Positions 14,301 through 53,848 of a stretch of DNA of 64,000 bases are shown in pieces. The DNA is taken from NCBI GenBank assembly GCA_034687125.1, contig JAQGBZ010000109.1, positions 62,001 through 126,000 of the forward strand, written 5' to 3'. This DNA is from Neelides folsomi. Its lineage: Eukaryota > Arthropoda > Collembola > Neelipleona > Neelidae. Below the pieces are notes generated by a model, which worked only from the letters and a program-made list of their open reading frames with translations, was not told where the DNA came from and did not search any database. Each line of letters begins with the position of its first letter. The first letter of the stretch is position 1. The position numbers and the translations under genes are program-made.

Positions 14301-15824
14301 TATGATTAATAATAACATAATAATATTAAGATTACCAGTGTCGACATGACCAAGAACACAAACAACGGGAGATCTCAGAATCTTAATGTTTTTAGCCTTT
14401 TCATTTTCTTCTCTTCTTCTCTGAAATGCAAAATAATCGGAAATTACAAACTATACTAAAATCATTATGTTGATTACATTTTTGATAATATTTTTTTAAA
14501 ATTACCTGAATTCTCACAACCGCCTTTTCCTTTTTCTTCTCAACCTCAGATTTCGGTTCATGAATGCTTTCCTCGCTAGCGTCTGAGTCAGAATCGTCTT
14601 CAGAGTCACTTTCAGAGTCAGAGTCTTCGTCGCCTTCTTCGTCATCCTTCTCATCACCATGAGGGGACGGGGTAACCGAAGCAGCGTCTTTAATCTCTTC
14701 AATCTTCATTTCATCAACCATAACAAAGTCCTCTTTGATCTCGTCATCAGAATCTTCGTCCCAAGCATCTTTGACTCCATCCTCAAGTGCATCGCTTTTG
14801 GCAGGTTCTGGACCTTTTTCTTCACTTGAGATGACGTCGACGGTTGACTCGCTCGGGGTCAAATTGCTAGGAGACTCCGAATGAACAGAAGCTTCTTCCG
14901 TGCTCGTCTGAGTTTGGAGTCCTTTCTTGGGACGGATTCTCGTCCCGAGCCTGGCTGGCTTCTTCTCCTTACCCACCTCAGGGACTTCAACTCCCTGGGC
15001 CCTTAAAGCATCCAGCATAGCCTGAGCTCTCTGCTTCTCTTGTCTTTGCTTCGGGGTGAGATACTTCCCTTCAGCCTTCAGTCGTTGAATCTTCTCCTTC
15101 TCCTTTTGTTTCTTACGCTCTTTCTTCTCTTGTTCGAGACGGAGCTACAAAATAATAAAAGAATGAATAAACTAGCCAAATAAGAAACAAATAAATTAAA
15201 TTAATTTTGTAAACCTTTTCAAGCCGAGCATCTTCAGCCTGATCTTTCAACTTGTCCTTTTCTTCTTCTTCTCTAATCAACCTCTCCTCTTCTTCCTTGG
15301 CCTTTCTATTTCGCTCTAGAATGGCGGCCACCTGTTTATTTGACAGCCCCTTTTTCGGCGGCTCTTTCTTCTCCTCTGGTTCCTTCTTGGCCTTCTTCTT
15401 TTTCTTCTTCTTGTCCGACTCTTCCTTGTCCCCACCAGTAGCCTCTCCATCCTCGCACTTCGCATCTCCATCGGCAGTTCCAGAACCGCTCATTTCTGAG
15501 CCCTTCTGCTTCCCCTTGACCGCTCCTATGTCTTCAGCTGATGTGTCAGGTGCTTCACCCGAAGCCGACTCCAAATTGGCTTCTCCGCCTTCATGTTTTT
15601 GCTGGGCCTTCAACTTCTGCTTCAACTTCTTCTCCCTCTTCTTTTGAGCAGCTGTTTTCTCGGCCCTTTCTTCATCGCCTAAAAAGTAAGTAAGAATGAC
15701 TCGACCTTTTTGTTCCTCCTTTACCTTTTCCACTTTCGTTCGTGTCAGGGTCCATGGCAAGATCTGATTGAAGTCGTGACTTGGAAATTTCCTTGGGTTT
15801 CGTTTGATCCCCTGTATCCGCCAT
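5380..15824 (-). CDS. eIF5B: Eukaryotic translation initiation factor 5B, 16 coding exons, 1008 aa
   Basis: Ribosome-dependent GTPase that joins 60S to 40S subunits at the end of cytoplasmic initiation. Coding exons (minus order): 15824-15725, 15678-15215, 15144-14506, 14420-14336, 14241-14108, 14014-13797, 13581-13455, 13360-13193, 13099-12923, 12825-12562, 7842-7766, 7651-7567, 7182-7060, 6854-6759, 5702-5541, 5487-5380. All junctions are GT-AG and the phases close to 1008 codons plus stop. Residues 1-400 are a charged Lys/Glu/Ser tail. The G domain shows GHVDTGKT (about 425-432, split by an intron), a switch I stretch [17 protein letters not shown] (489-494) and NKID (543-546). Beta-barrel, alpha/beta/alpha and C-terminal domains follow, with near-identity to animal eIF5B ([32 protein letters not shown]-like). 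The start MADTGDQTK is chosen because the frame joins exon 2 across a clean donor; a longer upstream ORF is out of frame. The charged tail is shorter than in human eIF5B (about 1220 aa). Confidence 0.97.
6492..6506. repeat. (AC)n microsatellite in eIF5B intron 14
   Basis: Simple AC dinucleotide run inside intron 14 of eIF5B, at the edge of a GC-richer island (about 6020-6530). Confidence 0.9.
7843..12561 (-). other. eIF5B intron 10, 4.7 kb
   Basis: Longest intron of eIF5B, between the exon ending KTSEIP (donor CCA|GTAAGT) and the exon starting YAGIRIGP. Mostly AT-rich sequence, with one GC-richer, stop-poor island at about 8130-8960. I checked for nested exons on both strands and found no ORF with splice signals or family motifs. 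Confidence 0.85.
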
Positions 15825-16272
15825 TTACCAGAATTCACCTTCTCTTCTGCTGTCTGCTTTACTGCAACTCCACGAGATTTTGCGCTTTCCCTCACGGAGC
15901 ACATGAATTTACTTTCGCAGCAATTCGCGGGTAATAGTGTTGACTCAAGGAAGGAGAGCTCTACAGGTTGTTCATAATGCACCAAAAATTCCCCAATTGT
16001 ATTTAATGGACCTTAACATTTATTCATTATAATTATATACCTGTGTTATAGTGAATGATAGGATGATTTTAATTTTTTTTAAGTGATAATGATAAATAAT
16101 TGAAGTAGGAGTAAATTGTATTTCAATTTATCCGCAATATAATTTATATAATAATACGTATTTATGATAAATCATACAGTACTTTTTACAGGTATATTAT
16201 TTGCATAATTTCAGTTAAAGCGTAAATTGTATTCTCTCAAAAAATATATTAATTTTATTAGATAAACATTGG
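15825..16272 (-). promoter_or_regulatory. Spacer holding MMAA 3' end and eIF5B promoter/5' UTR
   Basis: 448 bp separate the MMAA stop codon from the eIF5B start codon, both genes on the minus strand. The MMAA end carries an AATAAA (minus strand) at 16254-16259, only 14 nt after the stop. The eIF5B promoter and 5' UTR must lie in the remainder unless the two are co-transcribed. No TATA box was recognised. Confidence 0.5.
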
Positions 16273-18009
16273 CTATTTGTTTGAATGTATCAATGACTGA
16301 ATAGAAGTAAGAATGATATCAGAAGCAACTCCTGGACTCATTTTTCCATCTCTGACTTTTTCTTTTAACGATTCGGTCAGAGACGAAATTTTTGGATCAA
16401 GAAGAAGCATGGCTTGGAGGCCATCGTTGACATGAGTCCACATCCACACAACTCTCTGTGCTGCACGTTTATTGTCAAAATCATCCCTAGTGTCCTCTTG
16501 ATATTTGCAAACTGCATTCCAAAACGAATCAAGGCCTTCCTTCGTTTTTGAAGAAACTCTCAATACCTAAAGATAAAAGAGATGTTTATTTAACTTTCTA
16601 AATGGACGTCATTCACTTATCATTAATACTTATCTTTCATATTTACTATGCAAATTAAAACATCAGAGAGGGATATTGTTTATTTATTGCATTTTTTAAT
16701 AGAAAGGTTCTGAGTTCTTGAGGCAACTTTTAAGTATAAGTAAATAACATATAAATATTAATACCTTTGGTTTCCATTTATCACTCTGAGATCTGATGAA
16801 TTTGAGAGCAGCTGTAAACTCGTATTGAGTCCTATGAGCAGGTCCTTCAAGATCTCCGTCAGATTTAGTAACAAGAAGAATATCAGCCTTTTCGACAATC
16901 CCTCGTTTAACTCCTTGGAGTTCGTCACCCCCGCCCGGGGACAGCAGAAGGACGAAAATGTCGACCATGTTGCAAACCGCATACTCCGATTGCCCAACTC
17001 CTGGCAAAAAATAAAAAATGTTTCCTTTCTAATAATCTTAAAATTTATATATTCTTAAAATTAATTCAATGATAGTCCAATTTTTAAAATTTGACTTTTT
17101 GGCGAATTTAGAAATAATTTTTGCTCACCAACAGTTTCCACGATGATGATATCGTAACCAGCATATTCACAAACGAGGATAGCTTCGTTGGTCGATCGCG
17201 TTACACCACCCAAATGTCCACGAGTTGGAGATGGACGAATAAACGCATTTGGATCCCTTGTCAGCTCAGGCATCCGCGTTTTATCCCCGAGCAAAGAACC
17301 TCCTTTGTTCCCAATGATTTGATTTTTAACAATTTGTTACTTCGCTCAACCTTCTTCGTCTCAACCTGTTGTCGTCGATGATGGATCGACGGCTAAAACT
17401 GCAACTCTTTTCCCCATTCCAGCCAAATACTTCCCAAGAACTTCAATGAATGAAGATTTCCCAGCTCCAGGAGGTCCAGAGAGGCCTAAGGAAAGAACCA
17501 TTAAATAAATATACATTTTCTTTGTATACTCGAAATACAAATTGTTACATTTAGAAAATTCAAAGTACATATTTCGTAAATTTTACCAATTCGTATGCTT
17601 TTGATGATTTTCGAATCCTCTAGTATTTTGTTTAATATTTTTTGAGCGGTTTTTCTCTTCATTTTATGTTCAGTTTCAACAAGTGTAATCACAGTTGCAA
17701 GACTAGCTCTGTCTCCATCTTTTAACTTTTTAACTATATTCTCAACAAATATGTCATCTGATTTTGTAATAGTGGAATAAGCAGTATATTGATTCGATAT
17801 AATTCTTTGATGAAAGCATTGGGACCCAACTTTGGTCGGCTAAGCAATGAATAAACGAAATTATACATTATTAATAATCAAATTTTCATTAAATTAAATT
17901 TAACTAAAGGCCACAATATGAATAAGACCACAATGTTGAGTATAAAAATCTTGTGGTTTAGAAATTTTGAATATTAGCTTACCAACGAATTGGCTAACTT
18001 TCTGAACAT
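16273..18009 (-). CDS. MMAA: Methylmalonic aciduria type A protein homologue (mitochondrial B12 GTPase), 6 exons, 367 aa
   Basis: G3E-family mitochondrial GTPase (MMAA/MeaB/ArgK) that gates adenosylcobalamin loading into, and protects, methylmalonyl-CoA mutase. Exons: 18009-17983, 17839-17587, 17485-17366, 17302-17129, 17000-16765, 16566-16273; all GT-AG, phases close to 367 codons plus stop. The first exon encodes only MFRKLANSL, the start of a basic, acid-free N-terminus fitting a mitochondrial presequence. Walker A is GPPGAGKS (about 97-104). Further family blocks are [33 protein letters not shown], the [14 protein letters not shown] Walker-B/switch region, and the guanine-recognition stretch LVTKSDGDL. 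Human MMAA is about 418 aa, so the difference lies mainly in the N-terminal leader. A small exon upstream of the leader cannot be excluded. Confidence 0.95.
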
Positions 18010-28700: not shown

Positions 28701-31700
28701 GAGAGCTTCTGGTTGTTTCTCAAGAGCTTTTATTGAATCAGCTACAAAATTTTAAAAATTTGTAAGCATTTATGAGAGAATTAAATTTAAATTGTTGAGG
28801 CTTCACTTACATTGAACCTTCATATTTTCAGATAGTTGAACCAACAACGACTGAGTAGTTATCTCATCAGAAACAACCGCAGCTGAATCCGGTATTTGGT
28901 TTGGCTGCGTCTCGCCAATTTTTCTTTTTTGGCCTCTGAATAAAAAGAGAGGCAATTAAACTCTATGATCATATCAATGATTTGGGGATTAATTTAATTT
29001 ATGAAAGACGCATCTATCATAAGGGAGAAAATAAGTTTTGCCACTCACAGCATGAGCGCCATCTCCCAGCCCAGCCTTTCCTCGTGGCAAATAAGTTACT
29101 TCGCAAAGAAACTTTAAGCTCTTTTAATCATATTTCCGTCAACACCCGGAACATAAATAATAATTCTATCATATAACTCACCTAGTTGCCCTCAGCGCTG
29201 AAGACATCTCGGGTAAAAATCGGTTTAAAGGTTGAATTAGTTCGGGAGCTCTTTTATGCGTGTCAGTCTTATTGCATCAAAAAGAACACCGGGGCAGGGA
29301 ATAGCGTAGGGGACACAGGATAGGAGGGAAAGATCTTTATTTAGATCTTTAAACGTAATGTCAGTTGGTATGTATCTGAGAGCTACCTACCATATTCGTA
29401 TAGTATCTCCTATACGAAGGGATGTAAGGTAATGAATATTAATTACTTTCATAAGTACACTCCGTTATTAACATTTTTAAAAGACATACATTATTTCTAA
29501 TATGATAGGATATCCATGTAAATATATTAGATATTTATATATATAATAATATTATTGTTGTTGCGATATTTATTTTCGTGACATAACCCACAAAGCAATT
29601 ATGTATAAAAGACATGGGGCTTTGGTGATTTGCAATAAGCCTATTTTCATTCTTTGAAAGTTTTTACGGCAAACATAAAGAAAAAAATGAAATTGCCAAA
29701 ATATTTACATTTTAGTAAAAATACAATTTCCTTTCGAAGATGCACTCAAATACTCTCCCATGCGCATATTGGTATTGAATTTAAAATATTTATGTAAATG
29801 TTAAATAGGTAGTACATTACAACAAGTACTATAGTACTGATACCTTGATGCTATTTGTATTCCCTAATGCAAGGCGAATTGGGATTTTTCAAGCTGAACC
29901 AATACCTAAATAAATAAGAATTTCTTTTATACTTACTTAATACTAGGTCAAGTAGCAATTTGTTTAAAAAAGTTATTTTTGTGTGGCACATTTCAGTTTC
30001 AAGCTTTTATAACTTTGTTTAAATAATGCAAGCTGTAAAGCTGTAATTGAATTTGAAAATGCTAATCCTGGAAATGCCAAATAAATACAGCATTTATGTA
30101 CATACTTTATGGGTTTGTATGGTACATGTGTAGTATGAAAATAATATTACCCTTTAAAATAGTCTTTAATTAATAAGTATATTAAAGGGGTTTTTTATCA
30201 ATTCTGGAACATTTATAAATTATTAAATAATTTTTGTCATACATACCTACTCTAATTACGCGTGCACGCGCGTGGAAGGGTCAAGTAGAAAATTTGAAAA
30301 AATGAAATTGAATGAGCTACATTTTTAAAATAATTTTGGATATGAATGAATACATCAGCGATAACATCAAATTAAAGAATGAGAGCACCGCAATGACGTG
30401 GTTGAAGTCAACTCTATTTTAAGATGAAAATTTTCAAATTGGTAGTTTCAATACTACCAAGCCCCGTTGTGATTTCGAAAAGGGTTTTAATTAAATAATT
30501 TTTTATTTTCAGTTCGAGTCGATTGATGAGGAACCTCGCTGAGAAAATGAGAAGGGACAAGTTGAACATGTACATTTCGGAACTCTCCTCTCTCGTTCCA
30601 ATAGTCGCAATGGCCACCAAGAGGATGGACAAGACCTCCGTTCTCCGCCTTTCGGCCAACTTTCTCCGGATAAATCTCAGTCAGTTTTATTTCCTTTCAC
30701 TGCCCTCATTATCCGCAATTAATTTCATGACTCTTTTTCTCTCAATTCACTCACTCACATTCAGAGAGTTAGAGACGTGGATCCATTATAATGCCAATAT
30801 GCATGTGAGCATAAAAAGTTTATTAAAACTAGCTCAAACTTGGAGGAGTGTAATCATAAATACTTATGATTACCTCCATCAAGTTATCTAGTAGAAAAAA
30901 TTGAAAGTTGTTTAAGCAATAAAAGAGAAACTACTTGACTTCAATCAACTACGGAACATTTTTTAAAATAAATTTTAACTTGTTATCATATCAGTTTATC
31001 TCACCCCTTGAACAATATTTATTTGGAGAATAAGGAATCTTATTAAATTATTATTTTGATGTGGAATGAGCTAATGAGTCAATTATATTTTATCTAATAG
31101 GTTTGAAGAACAACGCTCGAAAGGGCGGTAGCGGCAGCCGCATTGCTCCAGAAGGTCTTGAGTCCAATTTATCCTCGACGCTTTTGGAGGCACTTGAAGG
31201 ATTTATGCTCATTGTGACATCGTCCGGGAAGGTAGTCTATGTGTCCGATAGCGTCGAAAAGCTTCTCGGTCACTCCCAGCTCGATCTCATGGGCCAATCT
31301 TTGTATACGATCTGCCACAACGGAGACCATGAGCTTCTCCGCCATCATCTTCAACCGTCCAAACCATTTGAACCAAAGGGTAATAAGCTTATCGATATTT
31401 TGTCTAGGAATTGAAATTTAACTGTGAAAATGCTTGGCGCCTTTCTAAGATACGATCTTGTAATGTAATTAAAATTAATTATTTATGTGCGATAAGCTAA
31501 ATCACTTGCTGGATCATATTTGTAAACATGAATAAAATAAGACTCAACTTGAGCGAGCTGATATAATATAATATATTAATACCATGTATAATGTATATAA
31601 TATATGTACATATTATGTATGTATGTTGTGAGAGGGTTTAGAACACTATAAAGTGCTTTCACCGCGGCATAGACCTTCATTACATGGTATTAATACTTAA

Positions 31701-34497
31701 TTGAAAATAATTTGGATTTTATTTTCCAGAAGATGATGAAGATAGCAAAGGTGGCACAAAGGAGTTTGTCCCTCGTTCTCCTTCCTTTTTTGGGAAGCCT
31801 GAAGATGCGGCGGGATTGGCGGCTGGGGAACGGCGTTCTTTCTACATCCGAATAGCGGAACGGTCGATGGCACGTGGTGACCCGGCAAGACATGTCACAG
31901 TCCACATGATTGGAATGTTGCGACCTCCAGTCAACAAGAAAGATCCCCCTAAAAAAGGCAAGAAGGGTAAGAAAAACTTGACAGGGATTGTCATTACGTT
32001 GGTCCTTCATTTCTCATTTCCCTTTGTGCAGAATGCCCTTCAACGACGACGGGAGGCGGTGACGAGCATTTGCTCGTCTGCGTTGCTCGCCCATTCCGGA
32101 ATAAAGGGATCACTGAATTGTCTCTTATGGAGGCTGTTCAAGATGAATATGTGACTCGACACCTTCCCGATGGTCGAATCATCTATTCGGACCATAGGAT
32201 TGCATTCGTGGCTGGCTATCTCACAGAGGAGATCCAAGGACTCTCTGCCTTCAACTTCATTCACCAAGAAGATCTCCCTTGGGCGACTGTGGCCAATAAG
32301 CAAAGTGAGATTTAATGACAGTTATTCTTCAAATATAATTGACTATGAGAAAAGCAATATTTTTGATTCCCATGTTTTCTAATCCCCATTATTATTATGG
32401 TATTTTTCCTCGGCGCCATCCAATGATACGAGAGTCAAATTCACGCATTCATGTTAATTATCTATCCTCTTAAGCAAATATTGTTTATTAAATTTCAACT
32501 CTTATCACCATGTTAAGATAAGCAAAATTCATAACCTATCACACAGGAGAATTTAAACCGAAGGATAACAATAACTTTAATGGTTTATTCAACTTCAAGT
32601 TGTTTTATGAGTTGGACAAACAGAAAAACAGTATTTTATTATTATTATTGGTATTCAATTTCTAATTTTAATAAAAGCTAATGGATGATGAATATTCTGG
32701 TATTTAATAACCCTAGGTTTCAAACAGTCATCCAGAATGAACCCATCTCCGATTACATTTCCAATTTTGCAATTAAACTTTTACACCCTGACTTTGCACT
32801 AAATAAACATCCAAAGAAGCTCCCAATAATGTTGGAAAGTAAATATAGTAAAAGATGCATGTTGGCCTTAAGGTTAAAATGGGATGATGTTTCGACGCAA
32901 TTTAGGGAAAGTAAATCTTGCTCTCATCGTCCGCTGACTGTTGACATTAGGATATTTATCCTAATGTCAACAGCCAGCCGATGGGAATTTCCAGGGATGA
33001 GGGAAAGTGGGGAAATGGAGTAATGGCTACTTTATGACATAGGTGTGTAAAAGATCCGAGAAACAGGTCGACCCATTTTCCCCAAGCAAGAGCTTAAACA
33101 GAGAGATGAGGATTGAAAGAGAGTCCAGCTGGTTCATCTCTTGGAAAGACCTTCGATAAGTGGAATGAGTGAATAATGGGTCGTGTTTGTTTGTAGTGTT
33201 TAGCAGTGTGGAAGGGCAGGGATATTCCGTCTACAGATTACGTTCAAAAACTGGGACGCTGATCCATCTTAGGACAAGAGGATTCCTCGAGTTCAACAAG
33301 ACGACCCAGAAGGTGGAAACCTTCGTGTGCATTAACACCCTCCTGACGTAAGTGATCAAATTATTTATCAATTCCCACCAGCCTTCTTTACTCAACAAAT
33401 TTTAAATCTAATTTGACTAATGTGATTGAAAGCCGTATAGTTTAGGGATATTTCCTTGAGCTTTTGTTCACATTTTAATTGCTTTTTCATTGTTGAGTCT
33501 CAGGACAATTACAAAGCTTTTGAAATTGAGTCTCTCTTTCATAGAACATGTATTCTCTTATGTAAGTATAAAAGCTTGTCGAATTTATCAGTTCAAAGGC
33601 TTTATTTCAATTTCAAACTTGACGTATTTTCTTGCTTTGAAATGAAATACATTTCATTTTCTAAATTTTATTATTTCCTTGGTTCTACTTTCTAAGTTTC
33701 CCTTCTAAATGTAATCTAGAAATCAATAATATAAGAAATATATATAATAATAAATGTTTAGTTCAACTAATATGAATGTAAAGTTTAGAAGTGATTCAAT
33801 GGAGTCAATGCAGAGAATTCAAATGTCCTTTTGATCCAATTTCAGACCTGAAGAAGGGGAGAAAGAGCTAGAAAAGGAAAGGGAACGAATCACGCCTTTC
33901 ATAACATTTCAACAAGTGACGACGACTTCGTCGGCGAATGCTGGAACATCGGTAGCTGCCATTGGTCCAGCGCCATCCTCAGTTCCTGCATTGGGTCAGA
34001 GTCTCTCACCTGCTGCCTCTACTCAAACCATTTCTCAGACGACTGTCAAGATCGAAAGGGTAAAAAAGGGTCCCAATTGCTCTCCTGAGTCTGGGAAGAG
34101 CCTTTCAATTAACGGGGATGTGGAAATGCGGCTCAGCCCGCAAATCTCTTCCCCGACCCTCCAAGGGTCTCCTGAACCGGATGGTCTCTCAAATAACGAA
34201 AGGAATTTACCTGGCGTTCTCCGCCCACCCTTGTCATCTCCACTCTCAAACAATTGCGAAGACTCGGTCGTGATTGACACGGAGACGGGGGATGTTTTGC
34301 CTCGTCTCAACAAGCGTTCCCTTCCTGATGTGGACGAGATCATGATGGGGTCCAGTCCGAAACGGGCGATTACAATTCCGCTCTTTGCGTCCTTCTCTCC
34401 TCTTCATCACTCCCCGGTTCATGGGGTGGGAGGGAAGTGGACGGAGACCACGACGGCGACCACAATTATCTTTGACCAACACCACAATAATGGTTAA
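19738..34497 (+). CDS. Met: Methoprene-tolerant-like bHLH-PAS receptor (juvenile hormone / methyl farnesoate), 7 coding exons, 644 aa
   Basis: Nuclear bHLH-PAS transcription factor. In insects Met binds juvenile hormone through PAS-B and pairs with the p160 coactivator Taiman/SRC; in crustaceans the proposed ligand is methyl farnesoate. Exons: 19738-19913, 30513-30679, 31101-31379, 31730-31966, 32032-32304, 33197-33347, 33846-34497; all GT-AG, phases close exactly. Residues 1-58 are acidic and Ser/Pro-rich. bHLH (about 60-113): basic NLAEKMRRDKLN, helix 2 KRMDKTSVLRLSANFLRI, the Met-type pattern rather than Clock or Cycle. PAS-A spans about 135-275 (VVYVSDSVEKLLGHSQLDLM, then ERRSFYIRIAERSMARGD). 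PAS-B starts EYVTRHLPDGRIIYSDHR (about 325) and runs to about 428. The last 215 residues are Ser/Thr/Pro-rich and disordered-looking. The first exon is assigned by phase (AG|T) and donor, 10.6 kb upstream, so it is less certain than the rest. Confidence 0.87.
21388..21455 (+). CDS. Met: Candidate alternative first coding exon of Met
   Basis: ATG in a good context (GACAATGG) opens 22 codons, MELEQQFYLNYPYNKEYDHL then PY, and ends at a donor AG|GTAATT. It leaves two nucleotides (AG), exactly the phase the bHLH exon at 30513 requires (AG|T = Ser). The 19738 exon ends in the same phase, so either could splice to the bHLH exon and give receptors with different N-termini. The short length means chance cannot be excluded. 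There is no sequence similarity to the other first exon. Confidence 0.4.
28024..28349. mobile_element. Short non-autonomous DNA transposon (MITE) with 77-bp terminal inverted repeats
   Basis: Arms at 28024-28100 and 28273-28349 are near-perfect reverse complements; I count about three mismatches. They run from TAATTTAGAAATTG outward to CCCGTAGTATAG inward. The 170-bp core contains sequence (28100-28230) that recurs inverted at about 29283-29421. No transposase fits in 326 bp, so it is non-autonomous. A target-site duplication was not clear by eye. It lies inside Met intron 1. Confidence 0.8.
28380..29207 (-). pseudogene. Decayed spliced gene carried by the inverted-repeat element
   Basis: Unrecognised family. 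On the minus strand an ATG at 29207 opens MSSALRAT, with a donor AG|GTGAG at 29182. A second exon, 28935-28811, follows a good acceptor (TTTTTATTCAG) and reads GQKRKIGETQPNQIPDSAAV and onward to a GT donor. A third from 28741 reads SDSIKALEKQPEALAIQTDC and onward, reaching a stop at 28631-28629. Phases match at both junctions. Downstream, further open stretches in shifted frames (SSEKTYDFIKQVSEKEKPP; EDKEFEDDILVLSNSYESC) suggest frameshifts and stops in a once-longer, coiled-coil-like protein. It is nested in intron 1 of Met on the opposite strand. Confidence 0.5.
29283..29450. mobile_element. Inverted partial copy of the TIR element end
   Basis: This stretch is the diverged reverse complement of 28070-28230. 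It includes CAGGGAATAGCGTAG, GATAGGAGGGAAAGATC and the block ending CTATAC. It lies directly upstream of the minus-strand gene remnant starting at 29207. The simplest reading is that it is the far terminus of a longer, gene-carrying member of the family whose internally deleted version is the 28024-28349 MITE. Confidence 0.6.
32938..32973. repeat. Perfect 17-bp-arm palindrome in Met intron 5
   Basis: Arms CTGTTGACATTAGGATA (32938-32954) and its exact complement (32957-32973) are separated by only two bases. It would form a strong hairpin in RNA or a cruciform in DNA. It lies 220 bp before the exon encoding the C-terminal part of PAS-B. Confidence 0.85.
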
Positions 34498-39884: not shown

Positions 39885-41239
39885 TCATTTAAGACATCGT
39901 TCAAAGTAAGTCGTTCCAACGTAGCCGCCTCTCATAGCTTTCATAACATTGGACTCGAAGAGTCGACGGTTCGATTGAAGGACGTCAGCGGCTTCCTTGT
40001 TCAACGGATCTTCTGGATTTGGCTCCTAGGGTAAAAAGAAAATTTGTTTAGTTATAAAAACGATTTAGATTACAGAAATGGTACAAAGGCGTATACTCAA
40101 TGCATTAGATTATATAATTAATGAAATATACACGTATTCGGCATTAGCAATTAAGTGTCTTGTAAATCGTCTTAACGTCATTATGAACATATTAATTCTT
40201 TTATCATCAAGGAAAATTTTTAGCTCTAGGCCTTGAAATGTATTACATTACAACGATTATATTATGTAATTTATTGTTATCAGAAATTACTCTGTTGAAT
40301 AAATGATCTGTGTAAAAATGCTTAGATTAGAAATTTCAGGCTTCTTAGATTCAATTATCGATTCTCTTGAAATCATAAAAGAAATTATACGTTATCATTA
40401 TTTTTTATTAAGCCTCCTTCCTTAGATTTCAAAAATGTTATAACAAACCAAAACTAATAAACATAAGTCTTGTAAAGAATATCTGAGTCTGGATGTATTG
40501 GATTTCAATTTTGAAATGGTAAAGTGATAAACTAATGTTAACTGTTTTAGATTAAATATAATGATAACACTAGCGAGTCGCTTAAACCTCACAGGGGTCA
40601 ATGGCTTTGATGAAAGGAATCTAATTTTTATTACATTTTGTAATCCGATCCTGCCTCAAGTGTTTAAAATAAACTATAATTGTCAAATTCGTTATCGCTA
40701 AACAGAAATAACAATAGATTGAATTACCAAGAATAAGTATTGGAGACCGTAAACAATGGAGTTGACAGTAAGGACGGGCTTCCAATCTTCCCTCAAGATA
40801 TTTAGACACACATTTCCCTCGAGGTCAATGTTCGGGTGGTAAACATGAGTCTCACATTTGACTTTGGGAGGCTCATGAGGATAGTTGGCTCCGATCCGAA
40901 AGTTAAAGAAAAACCTTCCACCCTTGTAAAACCCTTCATCGGGACAAATGATGAGTTTAAAATTTAAGAGATCATCTGGATCTGGAAAGTCTGTTGAACA
41001 GGTCTTGGGTAGATTGAGTTCATTCAAATCTGAAAGGAAAACAAGGCCATTTGAACCATTTCCCTATGGTTTTAAATTAGCTAATTTGAAATTAAGGTAC
41101 TCCATCAATGTCCTAATTATCTTAGTTCACCTTTCATTACACGGAGTTGAGCTGGAGAGGCTCGCTTGGCCGACGAAGTTGACGAGGGCACGGACTCGCC
41201 CTCCTTTTTCTGCTGTTTCAATGAGAATAATTTGATCAT
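39885..41239 (-). CDS. UBE2M: NEDD8-conjugating enzyme E2 (UBC12), 3 exons, 183 aa
   Basis: E2 that takes NEDD8 from the APPBP1-UBA3 E1 and transfers it, with RBX1 and DCN1, to cullins, activating cullin-RING ligases. Exons: 41239-41131, 41029-40728, 40025-39885; GT-AG, phases close to 183 codons plus stop, the same length as human UBE2M. The N-terminal extension [16 protein letters not shown] is the family's E1/DCN1 docking peptide. The UBC fold shows [20 protein letters not shown] with the catalytic Cys at residue 111, as in human. The C-terminus [13 protein letters not shown] also matches. It is transcribed divergently from mRpL22. Confidence 0.98.
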
Positions 41240-49799: not shown

Positions 49800-52700
49800 T
49801 CATTTTCGGCCAGGGGTGAGGTCCGAGCCCAAATATTTCCCTTCGTCGATGGCCGTGAGAACATCACGGTAGTCGCAAGAGTGAGACAAACCAGCATTCA
49901 GCAAACACGTCCGTTTCCTTTTAACAAAATCAATTACAATCTTACTTTCTAACAAATACTTTATGTCAATTAAAGCAACAAAACCCCATTGATTTATCAA
50001 ATTATGTAATGTGGGGAAATGAGATGCCAACTGATGTTTACTATAAAGATTAATTCTTATAACTTTTAGACCTTCAAATTACTTTTTGAGGCTTTTTTCA
50101 TTTTTACCATTTGTAGTTCACATTTATATCCTTTTAAAATTCCATAGTATTATGCGGGCCCATTCAGGATGAATTCCAAACTACGTAAGTCACTTAATAA
50201 TATGTATACTATGTATGTATGTATGTATGTATGTTTTAATCCTGTTAAGTATGTACAACATGTATTATTTTCATATTATTAGTTACTGCCAGTATATTAT
50301 GAATCATTATATTTAAAATAAATTTAGATTCTTAATACACAATGTGTATTATAACAATAAGCTGTGAAATTTTTAAGCTAAAATACTTATTAAGGTCATC
50401 GTTATAACGAACAATTAAATTTATGAAATCTGTAAATGAAGTTTAATTTTATATGTGCGAAAAAATCTATATTTTTTACATTTTACCTGTTCATATTAGG
50501 TACTAGTAATAATAGTGAATAAGTTTATGAACACACTTGTAATCAAATAATTTTAAAATTTTGATAATAATTTGTTTGGGCAAATTAAGGATTTTTCTTT
50601 AATATTTACAAGTAAATGGTTTATAAGAGCCAATTTGTACAAACTAAAAATTTCTTAAGTTTCTATGCTCTAGTATTGGACCCTTGATTGGACAAGTTTT
50701 GCAGATATACTACACACGCCTCCCTTCGTAAGGGAAATTATTCGCCTAATAAAAGAGGAAAAAGAAAGTCAATTGGGCGAGAAAATAAAATTACATATGG
50801 AAGATTGACTTTCTAATCAATCTTTTATATTTAATTAAACTCATGCTCCGATTCATCATTCATAAATTGAGTTTTGAGAGATTTCAAATGAGAATTCATT
50901 AAGCTCACTAACGAACTTAAAATTTTATTTCTTATTCAAAACCATTCTAACATACACATAAAAGAAAAATTCTTACGAAGAGTTTTGTGATTTAAAAAGA
51001 ATATTATTATAGAAAGAGAATTAAAGGTCATAAGGTATTTACAAATAATGTTGGTTACCTAGCTACTCTATATATTATATAGAGTATGTACTTGATACAA
51101 GTATTATAAAACTTGAATACTCTTTCAACATTGTATTGTGTTGCTTATTGTTGAAACGCTTAATAAAATGGATTTAAGAGATTCATAAATGCTAGACTAC
51201 TTAACATATAATCAATATTATTGAGAAATGGAAATCTACTTTATTCTGTATTTACCTATTCGATCAATTTGTGTTTGTCATTTTGTCATTGAGAGGCCTA
51301 TAAGTAAGAAAATAAGTAAAGAAGAGTGACGTGCGAATGTACGAAGAAAGAAGCCACCTCATCCATTTACCATTTTCTTTACTTTTCAATCCAAGGAGTT
51401 TGTGTAAGAAAATGAAGAAAGTTTTTTCATTCAACATACTCTATCTCAATAAATGAGCTTGACACTTATGATTGAAACAATTTTAAAGAACGTCATTCTT
51501 TATTGGAAATGCATCAATCTAGTCAATTTATTTAAACATTCTGATGAGCTATTGTTATTATTTATTACTATGGAATGAGGAAAATGATTTATGATTTATA
51601 TTTTACCAAATTTCAAAAAAAGGTTGTATAGTTACAATATAAATATGTATGCGTATTATACCTAATATTATATAGGTATTCGTATGTTATATGATACGTA
51701 ATATGCATTACAAAGCAATATGGGCAACAAATATAAAATTGTAAACAGGATGCAATATGTAGCAATTATAATATAAATTAGGACTTACATCTTTGGTTGT
51801 TCATTTCCATTCCATTGTGGCTTCCTCATGTTTTCGAGCGCGGAAAGGAGCATAAGTTTAGCCAACACCCTGAATTCATTTATTTAAAAATTAAAAATTT
51901 TGATCATTGTTGGACAAAAAATTGGAAATTGGCGTCAAAGAACAGTTGAAATACCTAAGTACTATAATTTATGCTTTTTTATATGCACTGGTTATGATTT
52001 TATTTAGGATAATGGATAATTATAGGCATTTGTAGTGTAATACTTAGCAATATTCACTGTCAGACTTAACATACGAATTTCCCTGCCATGATAATATTAT
52101 AAAAGTCAATTTCATGGCATTTATGTTTTTAGTTTATTTACAACCTAAAGCTAGTGTCCTATTAAGTATATCTTCATGTTGAGAATTTCTAAAACAATTT
52201 TATTACTAATTGTAAATTTCAACTTCCATTTATATTATTTTTTGATCAAACTGAATGCAAAAAATACACAGGAAGTAATATTGTACAGGTATTTAGGTAC
52301 TTAATGTTAAATAATTATAAAATATATTTATAGTATAAGCATGCCAATCCAAAGCACCAAGATGAACTTGAAGGTTGATATTTATTTCCTATTCACGTTA
52401 TACAAAATGTTGGAATTGAAAAATGGCCATTTCATATTTTACTTTCCTAATGTTTCAAATATTTAATATAAATGCTTAGTAAGTTTAGTTCAAAAGCTTG
52501 CTGAAAGGTCTTTTAATGAATATGATGAGTCAAAAAGAAAGATGAGTGTCTAGGGTAAGTAATTTGAAATACCTACATTTAATGAAGACACGAAACATGC
52601 ACGGCATTTCAATCATATTCACCTTTTCTAAATATTCATATAGGTATCTTGTTAAATATTAATATGAGATCTTTACTAAAATGCTTTTCTCTGACAGACC

Positions 52701-53732
52701 AATTTATTTTGTTAAATTACACTTTAAAATAAAACATAAAGCGAGACCATAAAAATGCTTTACATAAATTTGTATATTAAAAGCCATTCCCAAGATTGAA
52801 TTTAAAAATTATAACCGTTCCAAATATCAAATGAGGGGAAAATAATTTCTAGATTACAATTCATATGTAGTACTGATAATGATTACAATAATCCTATACT
52901 GTTGTATTCTCTTTTAGTCTCTGTATATAATGTATGTATGTACAGTGAAATTTAATATCCCTACTAATATACCCACACATATTAAGTATCCATACATATA
53001 TTATAATTACTTACAATGTATTATGTTAGTACATAACGTACGCAAAATAATGAATTTAACATGTCTAACTTTTAATTGAAATTTCGGGTATGAACTTCTA
53101 CTACCAGACAAGCAACCTGTTACAGTCAACCTTTGTCTATTTTATTTCAATTATGAACTTCTGAGGATAAATTCCTGATCCCCGAACAAATTAAAATAGC
53201 TAAATCACAGAATTCGAAGAATTTAAAACGTATCTTTCATATTGAGATCAAGATAATATACCTTTAAATAATATTATGTATACACTACACTATTGACTAA
53301 ATAATGTACATAATAAATTCACAAATGTAGTTACATAATCGTATAGTCATTCAATTTAATCTAATATCTCGAGGCTCAGACTTTGAGGAGGAAATTAATA
53401 CTTTACATCCCTATATCCATTATGTCTTAGAAATGTTGAGAAAATCTCAACTTTGAAATTATTCACAAGGAGTTGAAAATTAAGGTTAATGAAAATTGAA
53501 ATTCCGTTTATTGGGAGTGAAGTTTGAAGAAAGGAATTTGAATTTGACATTTAATTTTGTATTCAAAGGGCGGACTTCACCTGCTTTCGACGTTCTGACC
53601 GAGCGGGTATGCCTTTGGAGCAGATGAGTCTGTGAAGAGATGTTGTTGGCCGCCCTCGAGGGGAAAGGCCGCCACGGAGAAGGCGAATGAGAGGAGAACC
53701 CCCGCTACCACCGCCAGAATTTCCTTTGCCAT
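49800..53732 (-). CDS. Calcitonin-like neuropeptide precursor, 3 coding exons, 116 aa
   Basis: Probable secreted peptide hormone acting on a calcitonin/DH31-type class B GPCR. Exons: 53732-53581, 51869-51789, 49917-49800; all GT-AG and all joined in phase 2. Exon 1 encodes a signal peptide (MAKEILAVVAGVLLSFAFSV, then AAFP) and propeptide. Exon 2 encodes a linker (VLAKLMLLSALENMRKPQ...). Exon 3 reads KR, then TCLLNAGLSHSCDYRDVLTA and IDEGKYLGSDLTP, then GRK and stop. This is a 33-residue peptide bounded by a dibasic site, with two N-terminal Cys that can form the calcitonin ring, the NAGLS-x-x-CDY block of arthropod calcitonins as I recall them, and a C-terminal Pro with an amidation Gly, as in vertebrate calcitonin (TP-amide). 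The Cys spacing is longer than the vertebrate seven-residue ring. DH31 itself lacks the Cys ring, so this is the calcitonin type. Further exons cannot be excluded. Confidence 0.8.
49918..53580 (-). other. Introns of the calcitonin-like gene
   Basis: Two AT-rich introns (53580-51870 and 51788-49918) around the 81-nt middle exon. They carry an (ATGT)n microsatellite at 50211-50234. I looked for a second peptide-coding exon (for example DH31-like) and did not find one by eye. Confidence 0.5.
50211..50234. repeat. (ATGT)n microsatellite
   Basis: Six tandem ATGT units inside the second intron of the calcitonin-like gene. Confidence 0.9.
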
Positions 53733-53840: not shown

Positions 53841-53848
53841 CTTTTATA
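53841..53848 (-). promoter_or_regulatory. TATA box of the calcitonin-like gene
   Basis: TATAAAAG on the minus strand, followed by GGGGGATGTAGG, lies 109-116 nt upstream of the start codon. Transcription would begin about 30 bp downstream (near 53815), giving a short 5' UTR of roughly 80 nt. The TTCCTCTCTCAG just before the ATG (53743-53754) could also be a splice acceptor for an upstream non-coding exon. Confidence 0.55.

Follow-up and report, generated by a model that had tools for sequence, protein, structure and literature searches.

A probable calcitonin A-type neurohormone gene in three short exons of the springtail Neelides folsomi

Gene structure at the locus and its surroundings

The stretch of DNA analysed here (64,000 nucleotides of one Neelides folsomi contig, referred to as the window) holds three open stretches on the minus strand, between positions 53732 and 49800, that are joined at GT/AG sites with the same phase at both junctions. 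The joined frame has 351 nt and encodes 116 amino acids followed by a stop codon; the donors are GTGAAG and GTAAGT, and the acceptors end in ATTCAG and TTAAAAG. The first-pass annotation had proposed that three small, easily missed exons combine into a calcitonin-like hormone precursor, and our reconstruction reproduced its exon borders, exon lengths and phases exactly. The order of the parts that it had described was also recovered in the joined frame, with the layout MAKEILAVVAGVLLSFAFSVAAFPLEGGQQHLFTDSSAPKAYPLGQNVESRVLAKLMLLSALENMRKPQWNGNEQPKMKR-TCLLNAGLSHSCDYRDVLTAIDEGKYLGSDLTP-G-RK, that is, a signal peptide, a linker, a KMKR site, a 33-residue peptide with two Cys, Pro-Gly, RK and the stop. 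The features are listed in Table 1.

Table 1. Features of the calcitonin gene and of neighbouring genes. Positions are those of the window.
Feature	Position	Strand	Remarks
TATA-box-like TATAAAAG	53841..53848	-	starts at 53848, 116 nt upstream of the ATG; suggested by the sequence alone
Coding exon 1	53581..53732	-	152 nt; ATG, predicted signal peptide of about MAKEILAVVAGVLLSFAFSVAA (putative cleavage site) and start of the linker; the last 2 bases are part of a codon; donor GTGAAG
Coding exon 2	51789..51869	-	81 nt; linker peptide; both ends in the same phase
Coding exon 3	49800..49917	-	118 nt; KR site, 33-residue two-Cys calcitonin, Gly as amide donor, RK, stop
Mature peptide TCLLNAGLSHSCDYRDVLTAIDEGKYLGSDLTP	49812..49910	-	predicted amidation and disulphide; start placed by peptide sliding, end by counting 33 residues
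Exons with HLH, PAS and PAS_11 domains (Pfam)	30499..32315	+	presumably resembling the juvenile hormone receptor Methoprene-tolerant
Ubiquitin-conjugating enzyme exon (UQ_con, E 3.8e-30)	40698..41063	-	taken by us to be like the NEDD8 E2 UBE2M
Charged reading frames	14401..17028	-	no Pfam match; presumably resembling eIF5B
MeaB/MMAA-type GTPase exon (E 1.6e-23)	16696..17028	-	

The signal peptide was called from its hydrophobic stretch: residues 4 to 22 have a mean Kyte-Doolittle value of 2.2, against at most 0.83 in the 19-mers scanned from residue 25 onwards. The precursor thus shows the signal peptide and the flanking dibasic sites of a secreted arthropod calcitonin precursor, and its mature peptide has two N-terminal Cys with nine residues between them and a C-terminal Pro-Gly, from which the disulphide bond and the amide are predicted. 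During maturation, the precursor would enter the secretory pathway by means of its signal peptide, a convertase would cleave after KMKR, the C-terminal RK would be trimmed, the Gly would be converted to a Pro-amide, and Cys2 and Cys12 would form the nine-residue ring. The 33-mer set free in this way may have as its target a class B1 GPCR from the calcitonin-receptor group.

Two details of the gene model allow some variation. The pyrimidine tract at the acceptor of exon 3 is mediocre (0.55) and the reading frame is open further upstream, so that the acceptor might lie several codons earlier; the mature peptide would be unchanged in that case. Skipping of exon 2 could keep the frame. As the octamer TATAAAAG is found seven times on the minus strand of the window, its reading as a TATA box is tentative.

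A calcitonin remnant has been reported in the firefly Photinus, in the available part of PMC6585902, and only one strongly calcitonin-receptor-like gene was seen here for two ligands (see below), which together raise the question of a decayed, no longer expressed gene. Against this, the start, the hydrophobic leader, the splice sites, the KR site, both Cys, the PG and the stop are all intact across three exons, and exon GC (0.58, 0.44 and 0.53 for exons 1, 2 and 3) is well above that of the introns (0.27 and 0.26), with 0.28 in the downstream kb. We consider decay very improbable and, on the strength of the sequence, regard the calcitonin gene at 53732-49800 as real, intact in appearance and correctly interpreted.

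The HLH/PAS gene of Table 1 is some 17 kb away from the calcitonin gene, a proximity that is probably coincidental. Elsewhere in the assembly, the mitochondrial contig (C742) has the order I-Q-M-nad2-W-C-Y-cox1-Leu(UUR)-cox2-K-D-atp8/6-cox3-G-nad3-A-R-S-E-F onward, in which ARAGORN named 21 tRNAs and left one unnamed (Asn was not called) and the protein genes were named by eye. A Leu(UUR) gene placed between cox1 and cox2 is characteristic of Pancrustacea, and we take the rest of the order to be the ancestral pancrustacean one. The order suggests a pancrustacean host, and the COX1 protein may be springtail-like.

Similarity beyond chance and copy number

To evaluate the peptide, the pattern [KR][KR]..C..C..PG[KR] was searched in the six frames of the 64-kb window, where it marks a single site (as two overlapping rows), namely exon 3; none of 60 windows simulated with the trinucleotide statistics of the window contained it. 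Without gaps, the decapod calcitonin and the 33-mer of the window are identical at 17 of 33 positions, a score that 0 of 5000 shuffles reached, with the Cys and PG held fixed or not. The calcitonin A of Locusta shows 35% identity and has CDY in common with the window peptide; none of 5000 free shuffles equalled its score, and three of 5000 did so when the Cys and PG were fixed. When the two published peptides were slid over the window in six frames, exon 3 was the best position for both, with a BLOSUM62 score of 98 for the decapod peptide (second best 16; 127,798 positions) and of 45 for the Locusta peptide (second best 23; 127,810 positions). The similarity to published arthropod calcitonins, as judged with these two peptides, is therefore beyond chance.

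A search of the 75.1-Mb genome (840 contigs) with the decapod peptide gave exon 3 as the sole match (E 4.8e-6, one candidate scored), and the window peptide used as its own query likewise matched exon 3 alone (one candidate scored). With either query no second calcitonin copy was found in the 75.1 Mb, and the gene appears to be single-copy as far as this genome shows at the sensitivity used.

Profile searches added little. Neither the precursor nor the peptide of exon 3 matched any Pfam family, even with the threshold relaxed to E 10, a result to be read with the HMMER filters in mind, which discard most weak matches. The PF00214 profile (vertebrate calcitonin/CGRP) had no match in the genome, a null that is uninformative because none of 14 control genomes matched it either. 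When the 38 residues of exon 3 were modelled with AlphaFold from the single sequence, the result (mean pLDDT 62.3, with a helix at 16-24 besides two short strands) was too weak for use.

Taken together, we place at about 95% the probability that the locus is an arthropod calcitonin gene, single-copy in the genome searched and presumably of the A type, that would encode one neurohormone. The CDY block and the single peptide in the precursor make the A type likely, a label that rests on one named calcitonin A, that of Locusta; the Lysmata peptide is given with neither an A nor a B label in the available text of PMC7212414.

DH31, calcitonin B and the receptors

An alternative identity considered for the window peptide is the calcitonin-like diuretic hormone DH31, which likewise ends in a Pro-amide and, in the accessible part of PMC4237046, is counted as related to calcitonin. 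A separate, well conserved DH31 gene was found on another contig, C34 (G000:C34:44733-47825), with a DH31 peptide followed by GKKKR, so the gene of the window is distinct from it. DH31 lacks Cys and has the motif XXDXGLXRGXSGXXXAK...GP-amide, as excerpted from PMC7212414, to which the window peptide, with its two Cys, does not conform. The two Cys and the second gene already refute a DH31 identity, whose probability we regard as negligible. The first-pass annotation had asked for a comparison with both arthropod calcitonin and DH31 precursors, and the outcome favours calcitonin. The DH31 peptide exon, with its acceptor read by eye, starts one base before a codon boundary and shortly ahead of the KR, as does exon 3 of the calcitonin gene; this shared intron phase and KR position are consistent with an old common exon plan.

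Several arthropods make more than one calcitonin. According to the available portions of the respective papers, basal insects produce calcitonins A and B through alternative splicing and Holometabola have B only (PMC4237046), decapods make two calcitonin types (PMC4888303), and the Litopenaeus calcitonin gene uses either exon 3 or exon 4 (PMC11673531). An alternative last exon for calcitonin B, diverged beyond the motif used, could accordingly lie in the window, as the same partial accounts describe alternatively spliced A and B products for the termite and shrimp genes (PMC4237046, PMC11673531). The structure of the gene would permit it: exon 2 begins and ends in one phase, in which exon 3 also starts, and this makes the exons exchangeable. 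However, no second C..C..PG[KR] was present in the six frames of the whole 64-kb window. A further scan covered the minus strand between 40000 and 53732 and looked for AG acceptors in the right phase with an open frame containing C..C behind them; of its 11 rows, two are exon 3, and all nine of the others are without Pro-Gly. A hidden B exon is for these reasons unlikely.

The PF00002 profile gave 25 matches from 39 candidates in the genome. For comparison with PDB chains, the transmembrane exon pieces of three class B genes (C125, C41 and C24) were joined by eye, and the other PF00002 matches were read by eye. The calcitonin receptor was the best PDB match of the C125 composite (E 1.2e-37) and of the C41 composite (E 1.1e-19), and the best matches of the C24 composite were the secretin receptor (1.8e-24) and the PTH receptor (6.5e-24). 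The matches of C125 and C41 indicate that the calcitonin-receptor group of class B GPCRs is present. The C41 receptor looks PDF-receptor-like and may be the PDF receptor. A genome search with the C125 composite yielded eight matches in total; outside C125 there were weaker ones on C41, C24 and C381 only. Judging from these composites, one strongly calcitonin-receptor-like gene may serve both calcitonin and DH31. A crab transcriptome with two calcitonin-receptor orthologues and one DH31-receptor orthologue, as listed in the available excerpt of PMC8449533, weakens the reading of one receptor for two ligands, and a further receptor may have been missed here through short exons or assembly gaps.

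These observations allow the speculation that the animal keeps calcitonin A alone and has lost B, the mirror image of the B-only Holometabola, and that calcitonin and DH31 may, in addition, share a single GPCR of the calcitonin-receptor type (C125). We hold this combination to be rather unlikely. If it were true, the gene would reveal the role of the A peptide without its gut-expressed partner, and losses of ligand and receptor would not be strictly paired. The apparent absence of calcitonin B and the small receptor set are unproved extras worth a look; the calcitonin gene of the window is otherwise an expected gene.

Small peptide genes with short, widely spaced exons are easily overlooked by annotation, and a correct calcitonin entry opens the calcitonin/DH31 pair to study in a compact arthropod genome. 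A transcriptome survey of non-pterygote hexapods included CT-DH among its search targets and, in the available part of the paper, no calcitonin of the window type (PMC4770511), so the lineages surveyed there may hold unreported calcitonins. Beyond that survey, nothing relevant was found in the open-access literature on calcitonin, Collembola and neuropeptides, and the string NAGLSHSCDY was absent from the open-access literature searched.

Comparison with known calcitonins

Vertebrate calcitonin has an N-terminal disulphide ring with five residues between the Cys and ends in a Pro-amide. The window peptide is alike in both the N-terminal ring and the Pro-amide and differs in ring size, nine residues against five in vertebrates. 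The larger ring emphasized in the first-pass annotation is therefore a correct contrast with vertebrates and is not distinctive, as the decapod ring also has nine residues and that of Locusta calcitonin A eight. Similarly, the likeness of its TP-amide end to vertebrate calcitonin holds for one position, and both arthropod peptides compared end in SP; no sign of special kinship is seen.

The central proposal of that annotation, a calcitonin-type precursor with the arthropod NAGLS...CDY block and a Pro-amide end, is borne out against the published peptides, and the patchy retention of calcitonin in arthropods that it mentioned agrees with published papers. As described in the accessible text of PMC7212414, the decapod calcitonin of Lysmata vittata is TCYINAGLSHGCDYKDLVGAMAEKNYWDSLNSP-amide, with the same sequence stated for Macrobrachium, Homarus and Procambarus. 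The window peptide shares with it the length of 33 residues, the TC start, the nine-residue Cys ring, NAGLSH, CDY and the Pro-amide. After CDY the two are mostly unlike, with a C-terminus of LTP in the window peptide and NSP in Lysmata vittata, and the precursors differ in length (116 amino acids in the window, 164 in the shrimp, by the same partial account).

The arthropod calcitonin gene is separate from that of DH31 and its product has an N-terminal disulphide and a Pro-amide (Veenstra 2014, PMC4237046, available part). A three-way alignment that includes the calcitonin A of Locusta, taken from this partial source, retains the two Cys, CDY, scattered G, D, A, E and S, and the PG, with a Cys ring of eight residues in Locusta against nine in the window peptide. 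The calcitonin A precursors of Locusta and Zootermopsis, as far as that text presents them, contain one peptide each, like the window gene; the termite gene (Zootermopsis) also yields calcitonin B, for which the scans of the window turned up no exon. The published arthropod calcitonin genes, in the portions available, follow a plan like that of the window gene, with a signal-peptide exon, a linker exon and a peptide exon, and the gene described here is a new member of the already known calcitonin family of shrimps, lobsters and some insects.
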